Part shown: positions 23,655 to 27,332 of the stretch, piece by piece
Layout of the letters: each line of letters begins with the position of its first letter
How positions within the stretch are numbered: position 1 is the stretch's first letter
Assembly: GCA_026416715.1 (NCBI GenBank)
Contig: JAOAEQ010000034.1
Location: 1 to 27,391 of the forward strand
Direction of reading: 5' to 3'
Length of the DNA: 27,391 nucleotides
Source: a bacterium
Lineage (GTDB): Bacteria > UBP4 > UBA4092 > JAOAEQ01
Notes under the pieces: generated by a model
The model's input: only the letters and a program-made list of their open reading frames with translations
Told to the model about the DNA's origin: nothing
Databases searched by the model: none
Position numbers and translations under genes: made by a program

Positions 23655-24989
23655 ATGAAAATTGAGTTATTTAAATTAAATGAAATTAAAGATAGATTAC
23701 ATCAGTTTGAGAATTGGTATCGATATAAAAAAGAACTTGGTGCGGATTTAAGCTATATTGAACAAGAAGCTATGCGCGATTTCGATAAATTAATCAAAAG
23801 AACGAAACGGCTGAAAGAAGGGATTACCACCGCGTATATCGAACCGATGTCGTTGCATCAAATTCGGGTAACTCGACCTAAAGGTCCACGTATATTACCA
23901 ATGACTTTATCCCAGGAAGAATTATTGAACAAAATTTTTGGCGGCTGGCTCGGGCGTGGGGCGGGTTGCGTGCTGGGAATCCCAGTTGAAGGATTCGATA
24001 AAGCTCAAATTGCGAAATTCTGCGAGTTTATTGGTCAGTCCTATCCGCTGGATGATTTTTTTATCAATATACCGTTTCAGCAATATCAGCAATTGCATTA
24101 TGGAACAACTCCGATGAATAAGTTTATTCGCGACCAGATTGAATATCTTGGTGCAGATGATGATTTAGCATATACCATACTAAATTTAGTAATTATCGAA
24201 AAATACGGTTTCAAGTTCACCAACAAAGATGTTGGTAAAGAATGGCTTGACCGATTACCTATCGCTTGCACCGCGGAAGAAGTTGCCTTAACTAATTTAC
24301 GTCGCGGCATTATGCCGCCGAAATCTGCCAGGGTTGATAATCCGTTTGCAGAATGGATTGGTGCGGATATTCGGTCGGACATCTGGGGATATACAACCCC
24401 GGGACTACCGGAACTTGCTGCGGAATTCGCTTATCGCGATGCTTCCGTGTCTCATATTAAAAATGGTGTTTATGGCGCAATGTTTTTCAGTGCGACTATT
24501 TCCGCTGCATTTGTTGAATCTGATATTGATACCTTAATTGAAATTGGGTTATCCGAAATTCCTGCTAACTGTAGGTTAGCGGAAGCGATTCGATTAACGG
24601 TTCAATGGTATCGAGATTCTGGGAATAATTGGGAGGTAACCCGTCAGAAAATTGATGACCGATATGGTTACCTACATATGGCAGATACAATCCAGAACGC
24701 GTGTTTCACCATTTTAGGGCTCCTTCACGGTAAGCTTGACTTTACGAAAACGCTCGCTTATACTGTTATGGCAGGATATGATACCGATTGCACCGGTGCC
24801 ACCGCCGGGTCGATTCTCGGAATTATCCTTGGTGCAAACCAGATTCCGAAAAAATGGTATCAGCGGTTTAATGACCGGATTATTAGTTATGTTCGCGGAA
24901 TGGAAGATAACCGAATATCGGAATTAGCTCAGCGAACATTGGCGGTCGCCCAGAAGGTGACGCGTCATTATAGAAAACCAGGAAATTGA
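23655..24989 (+). CDS. ADP-ribosylglycohydrolase (DraG/ARH) family protein
   Basis: The 444-residue protein carries the ARH-fold domain at about residues 88-405. Motifs are IFGGWLGRGAGCVLGIPVEG (about 94-113), the first metal-site segment ADDDLAYT at 167-174, and the C-terminal metal site AGYDTDCTGATAGSILG at 373-389. The family removes ADP-ribose from proteins or related substrates using two Mg ions. The first 85 residues form a charged helical extension outside the usual domain. This DDDxxY variety differs from classic DraG (TDDT), and its substrate is unknown. A GGGGTGA ribosome site lies 4 bases before the ATG. The leu operon promoter begins directly after its stop, so it is a separate unit. 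Confidence 0.85.
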   Translation: MKIELFKLNEIKDRLHQFENWYRYKKELGADLSYIEQEAMRDFDKLIKRTKRLKEGITTAYIEPMSLHQIRVTRPKGPRILPMTLSQEELLNKIFGGWLGRGAGCVLGIPVEGFDKAQIAKFCEFIGQSYPLDDFFINIPFQQYQQLHYGTTPMNKFIRDQIEYLGADDDLAYTILNLVIIEKYGFKFTNKDVGKEWLDRLPIACTAEEVALTNLRRGIMPPKSARVDNPFAEWIGADIRSDIWGYTTPGLPELAAEFAYRDASVSHIKNGVYGAMFFSATISAAFVESDIDTLIEIGLSEIPANCRLAEAIRLTVQWYRDSGNNWEVTRQKIDDRYGYLHMADTIQNACFTILGLLHGKLDFTKTLAYTVMAGYDTDCTGATAGSILGIILGANQIPKKWYQRFNDRIISYVRGMEDNRISELAQRTLAVAQKVTRHYRKPGN

Positions 24990-24996
24990 ATTTAAC

Positions 24997-25025
24997 TTGA
25001 TTTTTGTTCAATTCAGTGGTATACT
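24997..25025 (+). promoter_or_regulatory. Sigma-70 promoter of the leucine operon T-box leader
   Basis: TTGATT (24997-25002) and TATACT (25020-25025, five of six) are exactly 17 bases apart. The predicted start near 25032 sits just before the first conserved T-box stem. Nothing else in the short gap after the preceding stop codon could drive the leader. Confidence 0.65.
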
Positions 25026-25037
25026 AATTATAAAAGT

Positions 25038-25405
25038 TAAAAGCGATGAAGAGGAGTAGTAGTTCGGCACTCTGCGTAGAGAGAGTCGGGTGTTGTGGTG
25101 GAAGCCCGATACCAGAACCGAACGAACTCGCCTTGGAGCTGCATGGGTGAAAACTTAAAAACGAAAGAACGGTACAACGAACAATCTACTTGTATATAAC
25201 TGTTAAGTTTTCCGTTTTTCAGTTTTTCAGTGAGTAGTTCATGCCGGTTGCAACCGTTATCTTGCATAAATTGAGCCCTGTGAACAAAAGGTAGGATTCT
25301 TTTGAAAACAGGGGAAGCAGGGTGGTACCACGGGGTATTGTGGGTATATAACTGCAAACTTCGTCCCTGACTGAATCAATGAATTCAGTCAGGGATTTTT
25401 TATTA
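25038..25405 (+). promoter_or_regulatory. T-box riboswitch, leucine-specific (CUC specifier)
   Basis: This is a full T-box leader that senses uncharged tRNA and opens transcription. Stem I elements run from GATGAAGAGGAGTAGTA (25045-25061), through AGAGAG at its AG-bulge region, to the conserved CCTTGGAGC at 25131-25139. The specifier CTC (Leu) is at 25127-25129, immediately before that landmark. A 9-bp helix (25150-25158 with 25203-25211) fits stem II, and CCCTGT/ACAGGG (25276-25281, 25308-25313) fits stem III. The T-box motif AGGGTGGTACCACG is at 25319-25332; its TGGT at 25323-25326 would pair with the tRNA acceptor end. CGTCCCT (25362-25368) can pair with it (antiterminator) or join the terminator. 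The leuA gene downstream agrees with a Leu specifier. Confidence 0.95.
25364..25402 (+). terminator. T-box intrinsic terminator
   Basis: TCCCTGACTGAAT (25364-25376) and ATTCAGTCAGGGA (25383-25395) form a perfect 13-bp stem with a 6-base loop, followed by six T residues and more T-rich sequence. Its 5' arm overlaps the antiterminator-pairing CGTCCCT, giving the mutually exclusive structures expected of a T-box. Confidence 0.93.
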
Positions 25406-25414
25406 TATTATATT

Positions 25415-25442
25415 TTGTTATAACGAATACTGCGAATATAAA
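25415..25442 (+). promoter_or_regulatory. Possible second promoter between T-box and leader peptide
   Basis: TTGTTA (25415-25420) and TATAAA (25437-25442) are 16 bases apart, in AT-rich sequence directly after the T-box terminator. If real, it would make a transcript starting near 25449 that carries the leader peptide and leuA without the T-box. The boxes are imperfect and the region is AT-rich, so chance is a serious alternative. Confidence 0.3.
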
Positions 25443-25479
25443 CAAATTATTCAAAATAGTTATGAAAGGAGTAGCCAAT

Positions 25480-25608
25480 ATGGATATTTTAGTAATAGTT
25501 TTAATCAGTGGATTCATGTTATCAAGGTTAGTTGGGCTACTACTCCTTCTAGGTCGGTTAGACCGACCTAGTGATGACAACCCTTTTTCTATTTCAATTT
25601 CTATTTGA
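25480..25608 (+). CDS. Leucine-rich leader peptide of leuA (42 codons)
   Basis: This short frame has a strong ribosome site (AAAGGAG 8 bases before the ATG), better than most genes in the window. It encodes 42 residues, 11 of them leucine, including five consecutive Leu codons (CTA CTA CTC CTT CTA, 25537-25551). The series is followed by GRLDRPSDD, broadly like E. coli LeuL, where GLLLLN is followed by RGRPVGG; that likeness may be convergent. A perfect hairpin begins in the last of the five Leu codons. This is what an attenuation peptide sensing charged tRNA-Leu looks like. A genuine small membrane protein is the alternative, since residues 3-25 are hydrophobic. It lies between the T-box terminator and leuA. 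Confidence 0.6.
   Translation: MDILVIVLISGFMLSRLVGLLLLLGRLDRPSDDNPFSISISI
25549..25571 (+). promoter_or_regulatory. Hairpin abutting the leader-peptide leucine codons
   Basis: CTAGGTCGG (25549-25557) and CCGACCTAG (25563-25571) form a perfect 9-bp stem with loop TTAGA. A ribosome stalled on the Leu run would cover its 5' arm. A run of five T residues begins 13 bases after the stem, too far for a standard terminator, so the regulatory outcome is not evident. Confidence 0.55.
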
Positions 25609-25628
25609 GTACAAACAAATAACATCAG

Positions 25629-25647
25629 ATACGGAATGAATCCGTAT
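25629..25647 (+). repeat. Small hairpin upstream of leuA ribosome site
   Basis: ATACGGA (25629-25635) and TCCGTAT (25641-25647) form a perfect 7-bp stem with a 5-base loop. No T-run follows, so it is not a terminator. It lies 17 bases before the leuA Shine-Dalgarno and contains the start codon of a possible 14-codon mini-frame (25636-25680). Confidence 0.4.
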
Positions 25648-25676
25648 AAATCTTACTCAGAAATGAGGATAATGAT

Positions 25677-27239
25677 ATGAACCACGATAATTCAACCCGA
25701 ATTATTATTTTCGATACCACGTTACGTGATGGCGAACAATCGCCGGGCGCAAGTTTGAATACGAAAGAAAAACTGCAAATCGCCCGGCAGTTAGCGAAAT
25801 TGGGTGTCGATGTCATTGAAGCAGGATTTCCAATATCTAGTCCGGGAGATTTTGAAGCAGTACATTTAATTGCGAAATCAGTTCAAGGTCCAACGATTGC
25901 GGGATTAGCGCGCGCACATCCTGCGGATATTGACCGCTGTTGGGAAGCAGTGAAACCGGCAAAAAAACCTCGTATCCATACCTTTATTGCCACCAGCGAT
26001 ATCCATATTGAAAAGAAATTGCGCAAGAGTAAAGAAGAGGTCATTGATATTGCGGTAAAAGCGGTTAAACGCGCAAAAGGATATACTGAGGATGTCGAGT
26101 TTTCCTGCGAAGATGCGGCTAGAACTGATAAAGATTATATGTGTGATGTTGTTGAAGCAGTGATTGATGCTGGTGCGACTACCGTTAATATTCCGGATAC
26201 GGTTGGATATAGTAATCCCTTCGAATTCGGCCAACTCATTAAATACATCATGGAAAATGTACCGAATATTAAAAATGCGATCCTGAGCGTTCATTGTCAT
26301 AACGATTTAGGGTTAGCGGTAGCGAATTCGTTAGCGGCGATTCTCAATGGTGCACGACAGGTTGAATGCACGATTAACGGAATTGGCGAACGGGCTGGGA
26401 ATGCGTCATTAGAAGAAATCGTTATGAACTTAAAAACCAGGCAGGATTTCTTCAAGGTTACAACCGGCATTAAAACCGAAGAGATTTATCGAACTAGCCG
26501 ATTGGTTAGTACCTTAACCGGAATTCCGGTACAACCGAACAAAGCGATTGTCGGCAGTAATGCGTTTGCTCATGAAGCTGGGATTCATCAAGATGGCGTA
26601 TTGAAAGAGCGGTTAACCTATGAGATTATGACACCGGAATCAGTTGGCTGGAAGGGTACATCGATGGTTATGGGAAAACATTCCGGTCGGCATGCGTTCA
26701 AAGCACGGTTAGCTGAATTAGGATATGCGGATTTATCGGAAGAGCAAATCCAAAAAGCATTCGAACGATTCAAGGTGTTAGCGGACAAAAAGAAAACTAT
26801 TTTTGATGAAGATTTAATAGCGATTGTAGAAGATGAAATGGCAGTATTTCCGGAAACCTATGTATTCGACTATTTACATGTTACCAGTGGAACGGAAATA
26901 ACGCCGACCGCAAAAGTTCGTCTGCTTAAATCTGGCAAACCGATTACGGTTGAAGCTAAAGGAGACGGACCGGTGGATGCCGCTTATATCGCTATCGATA
27001 AAATTACGAAGCTGAAACCAGAATTACTCAAGTACGGAATAAAATCAATTACCGGCGGAACGGATGCACTCGGAGAAGTATCTGTAACGTTGCGCGCAAA
27101 AGGAATGACCATCAGCGGTCGCGGGTCGAGCGAAGATATTATAATCGCTTCCGCAAAAGCGTATCTTAATGCCATCAACAAAGTATTGTATCTAACCAAG
27201 AAACAAGGGAAAAAGAAAAAAATCCAACGCGAATTATAA
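25677..27239 (+). CDS. leuA: 2-isopropylmalate synthase
   Basis: The 520-residue enzyme condenses acetyl-CoA with 2-ketoisovalerate, the first committed step to leucine. The DRE-TIM barrel begins [13 protein letters not shown] (residues 12-24). The metal-binding His206 and His208 lie in [14 protein letters not shown], and [14 protein letters not shown] follows. A C-terminal LeuA regulatory domain (about 395-510, with [20 protein letters not shown]) is complete, so leucine feedback inhibition is expected in addition to leader control. GAGGAT lies about 7 bases before the ATG. The leader elements upstream (T-box, leucine peptide) regulate it, and leuC follows after 106 bases. Confidence 0.97.
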
Positions 27240-27248
27240 AATAGATGG

Positions 27249-27332
27249 ATTACACCGATTGTTAAAACTGATTACATAGATTACAATATGCTCACAAGAA
27301 TCTATGTAATCTTTTTTCTAATCTGTGTAATC
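27249..27332 (+). repeat. Nested inverted repeats between leuA and leuC, terminator-like
   Basis: An inner perfect 13-bp inverted repeat (GATTACATAGATT at 27270-27282, AATCTATGTAATC at 27299-27311) with a 16-base loop is followed by six T residues, like a terminator. An outer pair (GATTACACCGATT at about 27249-27261, AATCTGTGTAATC at about 27320-27332) encloses it with one mismatch. The arms are variants of one GATTACANNGATT unit, giving four related copies in 84 bases. It may partially terminate leuA transcripts or be a small repeat-derived insertion. Confidence 0.6.

Follow-up and report, generated by a model that had tools for sequence, protein, structure and literature searches.

The closest described counterpart of the arrangement reported here is the leader of Bacillus subtilis rtpA (yczA, anti-TRAP), in which a Trp leader peptide comes after a Trp T-box (Chen and Yanofsky 2003, 2004, as cited in PMC11255114). 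For leucine, the LEU element of Actinobacteria places a Leu leader frame upstream of leuA with no clear terminator (Seliverstov et al. 2005, PMC1262725); it has no T-box and is defined by a pseudoknot and by a base stem that pairs the Leu codons with the leuA Shine-Dalgarno sequence (SD). Classical attenuators, such as E. coli leuL and the Staphylococcus aureus ilvD leader (ilv-leu; Leu leader frame and terminator, PMC5794164), also carry a frame with a run of Leu codons upstream of leucine biosynthesis genes; in these leaders an intrinsic terminator follows the frame, and there is no T-box. Ordinary Leu T-box leaders, on ilv-leu and leuA, have no leader peptide. Tandem riboswitches, T-boxes included, have been described on BCAA operons (PMC12452182).

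We analyzed a 27,391-nt stretch of bacterial DNA (the window) in which leuA is preceded by a T-box and then by a 42-codon frame with five consecutive Leu codons, all on the forward strand. Our reading, to which we assign a rough probability of 0.55, is that leuA is controlled by two leucine-starvation sensors in series, first the T-box and then the leader peptide. A preliminary description of this DNA had proposed two such layers; the layering stands as the best reading and is strengthened by the same order of elements in three genera of one family in another phylum, while the mechanism of the second layer is a proposal. That description had also held that no well-described case of a T-box and a leader peptide in series exists, which is wrong in kind, given the rtpA precedent for tryptophan. 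For leucine and leuA, no report of a T-box and a leader peptide in series was found in the openly licensed literature that we searched.

The window and the rtpA leader share the order of a T-box, a frame with a codon run for the same amino acid and then the target, in one direction, with no terminator 3' of the leader frame. Both steps are inducing under starvation in rtpA, and would be so in the window if the peptide step works as proposed. The two differ in the amino acid (Trp there, Leu here) and in the target, which is the regulator anti-TRAP in one case and a biosynthetic enzyme in the other. With the LEU element, the window shares a run of Leu codons in a frame immediately 5' of leuA, the lack of a clear terminator, and RNA structure just after the run. 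In contrast with the classical attenuators, the window's only terminator, that of the T-box, precedes the frame.

The leuA T-box

A T-box leader RNA (RF00230) was identified at 25037-25371 by a covariance match over the full length of the model (positions 1-219), scoring 99.2 bits (E = 5e-21) against a gathering score of 93 bits. The Leu specifier CUC, which is common to relatives, is located at 25127-25129 within GAACUCGCC, the T-box motif of the antiterminator, AGGGTGGTACCACG, is present within 25037-25371, and the region folds with a z-score of -5.4. The competing intrinsic terminator (25363-25396) consists of a 13-14 bp stem followed by T6, and is the sole terminator-like site found in a terminator scan of 24900-25720. 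The specifier is cognate to the regulated pathway, and among the tRNA-Leu genes of the genome (GAG, UAG, CAG, CAA, and UAA), tRNA-Leu(GAG) matches it. A whole-genome search detected no other T-box. These results bear out the earlier account of a complete T-box (Leu specifier CUC, 13-bp terminator), and the element agrees with known Leu T-box leaders of ilv-leu and leuA in family, specifier and target gene. Given its sequence and established T-box biology, it is near certain that uncharged tRNA-Leu(GAG) would bind the T-box via CUC and favor the antiterminator, so that polymerase passes the terminator at 25363-25396.

The target, leuA (25677-27239), encodes a 2-isopropylmalate synthase of 520 aa (NF002086, 830 bits; HMGL-like, LeuA_dimer), and is preceded by the SD GAGGA at 25665-25669, with a duplex energy of -6.1 kcal/mol.

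The leucine-rich leader frame

The 42-codon frame (25480-25608) is situated between the T-box terminator and leuA and encodes MDILVIVLISGFMLSRLVGLLLLLGRLDRPSDDNPFSISISI. Its SD, AAAGGAG (25465-25471), lies 8 nt from the ATG and pairs with the anti-SD at -8.2 kcal/mol, stronger than the SD of leuA, while an upstream in-frame ATG at 25462 has no SD. The five consecutive Leu codons, CTA CTA CTC CTT CTA, occupy 25537-25551, and in total 10 of the 42 residues are Leu. The frame, its Leu run and its strong ribosome-binding site upstream of leuA are therefore as originally described. When the post-terminator region was shuffled, a run of at least five Leu codons in any ATG, GTG, or TTG frame arose in only 5 of 5000 shuffles (about 1 in 1000). 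All codons of the run are CTA, CTC, or CTT; among the window genes TTA (37%) is the most frequent Leu codon, and it encodes each of the five Leu residues of the frame outside the run. Furthermore, a perfect 10-bp hairpin with a 3-nt loop (25549-25571) begins at the run's final codon, and an equally stable 23-nt hairpin was found in none of 500 shuffles. The idea that this hairpin is a mobile or repeated palindrome was rejected, as no other copy is present in the genome. The rarity of the Leu run in shuffles, its minor Leu codons, the good SD and this non-chance hairpin overlapping the run all support the reading with two sensors.

The chief rival explanation is that the T-box alone regulates leuA, and that the 42-codon frame is a product of chance, non-regulatory, or a small membrane protein with the Leu run in a transmembrane helix. 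The very hydrophobic character of the peptide (mean 2.46 over 19 residues), which resembles that of a membrane protein and counts against a second sensor, is in line with this explanation, and Leu-rich short frames occur in 72 of 2428 random 300-nt pieces (3%). The peptide also has no relative in 97 other genomes, where the remaining matches are chance similarities inside larger genes; this too counts against a second sensor. What this explanation accounts for poorly is the rarity of the five-Leu run in shuffles, a leader SD stronger than that of leuA, and a hairpin placed exactly at the run.

No second copy of the frame was found elsewhere in its own genome, and an Rfam search of the post-T-box region returned no match. 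Imperfect 14-nt direct repeats, GAATATAAACAAAT (25434-25447) and GAGTACAAACAAAT (25607-25620), flank the frame, possibly by chance.

Leader frames at other T-box-leuA loci

The comparison set includes one other genome of the same class, G001. Its leuA is also preceded by a T-box, CUC specifier included, with a short spacer that has no Leu frame. In the phylum of genome G013, a T-box motif was found upstream of 25 of 26 leuA loci, with specifiers that are nearly all CUC or CUG, a dense use of T-boxes before leuA for a group with few others. G013 and most other T-box-leuA spacers likewise have no Leu-rich frame: 26 of the 30 spacers examined lack a leader peptide, with Leu-rich frames on the sense strand in the remaining 4 and on the antisense strand in none, a bias that favors the reading with two sensors. 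Since the frame is absent from G001 and most T-box-leuA genomes, it is best viewed as a lineage-specific addition and not as a component conserved along with the T-box. Its absence from these genomes is also what would be expected if the T-box acted alone, and in the case of G001 counts against the reading with two sensors.

In family f109 of the G013 phylum, however, a short frame lies between the T-box and leuA at all three leuA loci (L080, L085, and L089), which represent three genera. These frames have 20-26 codons and end in NLLHLLLGGLRLGRP, NILLLPGLRLRRP, and NHNRLLLGLRLRKP, each then followed by the stop codon, giving the consensus GLRLx[RK]P-stop. Between the Leu run and the stop codon the frames are conserved, as is a hairpin starting at the stop codon, while the 5' part of the frame has diverged. 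The T-boxes of this family carry the Leu specifier CUG, and the f109 element has no Rfam entry. The window peptide, GLLLLLGRLDRPSDDN, and the f109 peptides both show a Leu run, G, R, L, x, R/K, and P in succession, a short match that was noticed post hoc. Two observations on f109 count against a second sensor in the window: the hairpin is placed differently in the two elements, and a covariance model of the f109 element had no match in the window. Across 386 genomes, this model produced four marginal matches, none with leuA nearby.

Conservation of both elements in order among relatives, which the preliminary description had put forward as a check, is seen in f109 and fails in G001 and most T-box-leuA genomes; the refuting observation that it had named, close relatives with the T-box but no Leu-rich frame, is thereby partly made. 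Judged from sequence, the series of a T-box and a Leu leader peptide is recurrent and lineage-specific, having been added to an older T-box, and is not a one-off. This conservation in three genera is a further difficulty for the explanation in which the T-box acts alone; we regard that explanation as less likely than two sensors, albeit the strongest of the alternatives. A broader interpretation, which we offer tentatively and would rate at somewhat under even odds, is that tandem sensing of uncharged tRNA at transcription and translation arose in a leucine form on two or more occasions, in the window lineage and in f109, each time by addition to an ancestral T-box of leuA. The RNA structures differ, while the peptide ends are alike (Leu run, G, R-L-x-R/K-P) and may by themselves favor stalling. 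Having two unrelated lineages in which a T-box-leuA background occurs with and without this layer would allow a direct comparison of what the second sensor contributes.

Other leader frames were encountered in this survey. At three leuA loci in other phyla (L032, L041, and L053), the upstream region has a Leu-rich leader frame without a T-box, and in L032 and L053 the frame is followed by a GC-rich hairpin and T run, like those of classical attenuators. In family f14, three long T-box-leuA spacers (L030, L066, and L067) conserve a stretch like CGCAGCCGTAGCACCCTCGCCCTATGA, with a frame ending RSTLAL-stop.

Proposed action of the leader peptide

Under the reading with two sensors in series, transcripts that read through the T-box terminator would be translated from the 42-codon leader, and scarcity of Leu-tRNA would stall ribosomes in the CUA/CUA/CUC/CUU/CUA run. 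We infer that such stalling would raise leuA translation. Translational control of leuA is the likeliest action of the peptide step, because there is no second terminator: the scan of 24900-25720 found no intrinsic terminator between the leader frame and leuA. Transcription attenuation of the trpL or leuL type (RF00512 for the latter) is excluded on present evidence by this lack of a terminator between the frame and leuA and by the lack of an Rfam leader match.

How a stalled ribosome might reach the leuA start is suggested by folding, which predicts that the leuA start region (25672-25685) forms a long helix with a candidate segment at 25508-25522. This pairing is weak, being equaled by 77 of 1000 shuffled leaders and, in a separate shuffle test, by 14 of 200, and its lack of significance on its own counts against the reading with two sensors. 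Stalled and queued ribosomes would possibly keep 25508-25522 off the leuA start region. A single ribosome stalled in the Leu run hardly alters the modeled pairing and was set aside as the opener of the start. With a stalled and a queued ribosome at the run, the modeled cost of opening the leuA start is about 5.1 kcal/mol instead of 9.1 kcal/mol; a reduction this large (4.0 kcal/mol) was attained in 2 of 200 shuffles, with a footprint model chosen after seeing the fold. Opening of the leuA start by queued ribosomes is consequently no more than suggestive in this model. A 9-bp pairing between the leader SD and the Leu run is possible as well and is marginal relative to shuffles.

Pairing of the Leu run with the leuA SD, the counterpart of the LEU element base stem, amounts to -5.3 kcal/mol and is at chance level, being attained by 523 of 1000 shuffles. 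In the rtpA leader, a few bases separate the stop codon from the rtpA SD, which is blocked by a ribosome finishing the leader. In the window, by contrast, the stop codon (25606-25608) does not abut the target SD but lies 56 nt 5' of it.

A lack of charged Leu-tRNA would drive both steps in one direction, so that leuA would be strongly expressed only in a real leucine shortage, an AND-type logic. If both steps work, the leader would be a natural cascade in which two chemically different readers, direct tRNA binding and ribosome stalling, respond to one signal on a biosynthetic gene, whereas the textbook case of a T-box and leader peptide cascade has so far been rtpA for tryptophan.

It is also conceivable that the leader peptide acts on transcription, through Rho-dependent termination or polymerase pausing at 25577-25606 that depends on ribosome position. 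This segment is pyrimidine-rich and nearly G-free, and there are known leaders, e.g., mgtA/MgtL (PMC8346122), in which Rho termination depends on ribosome position. However, stalling on the Leu run, 5' of 25577-25606, would leave this segment exposed and increase termination under starvation, the opposite of the response expected for leuA, and no intrinsic terminator is present; we consider this explanation improbable.

Transcription of the leader probably starts from a sigma-70-type promoter at 24997-25025 (TTGATT-17-TATACT, extended -10 TG, 9 of 12 matches). This assignment is based on its position directly 5' of the T-box, as the number of promoter-like sites is not above chance (2 found versus 2.6 expected). 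The preliminary description had raised a possible second promoter at 25415-25442, and hence two transcripts with different sensors, one controlled by the T-box and one with the leader peptide only, which we consider very improbable since TTGTTA-16-TATAAA, while present there in an AT-rich stretch, was not among the sites found by the scan, promoter-like sites occur at chance number, and no significant promoter is located 3' of the T-box. Directly 5' of the leader, and in the same direction, is a gene of the ADP-ribosylglycohydrolase family (23655-24989, Pfam PF03747). Just 3' of leuA, a hairpin and T run are present at 27265-27313, suggesting that leuA is transcribed alone.
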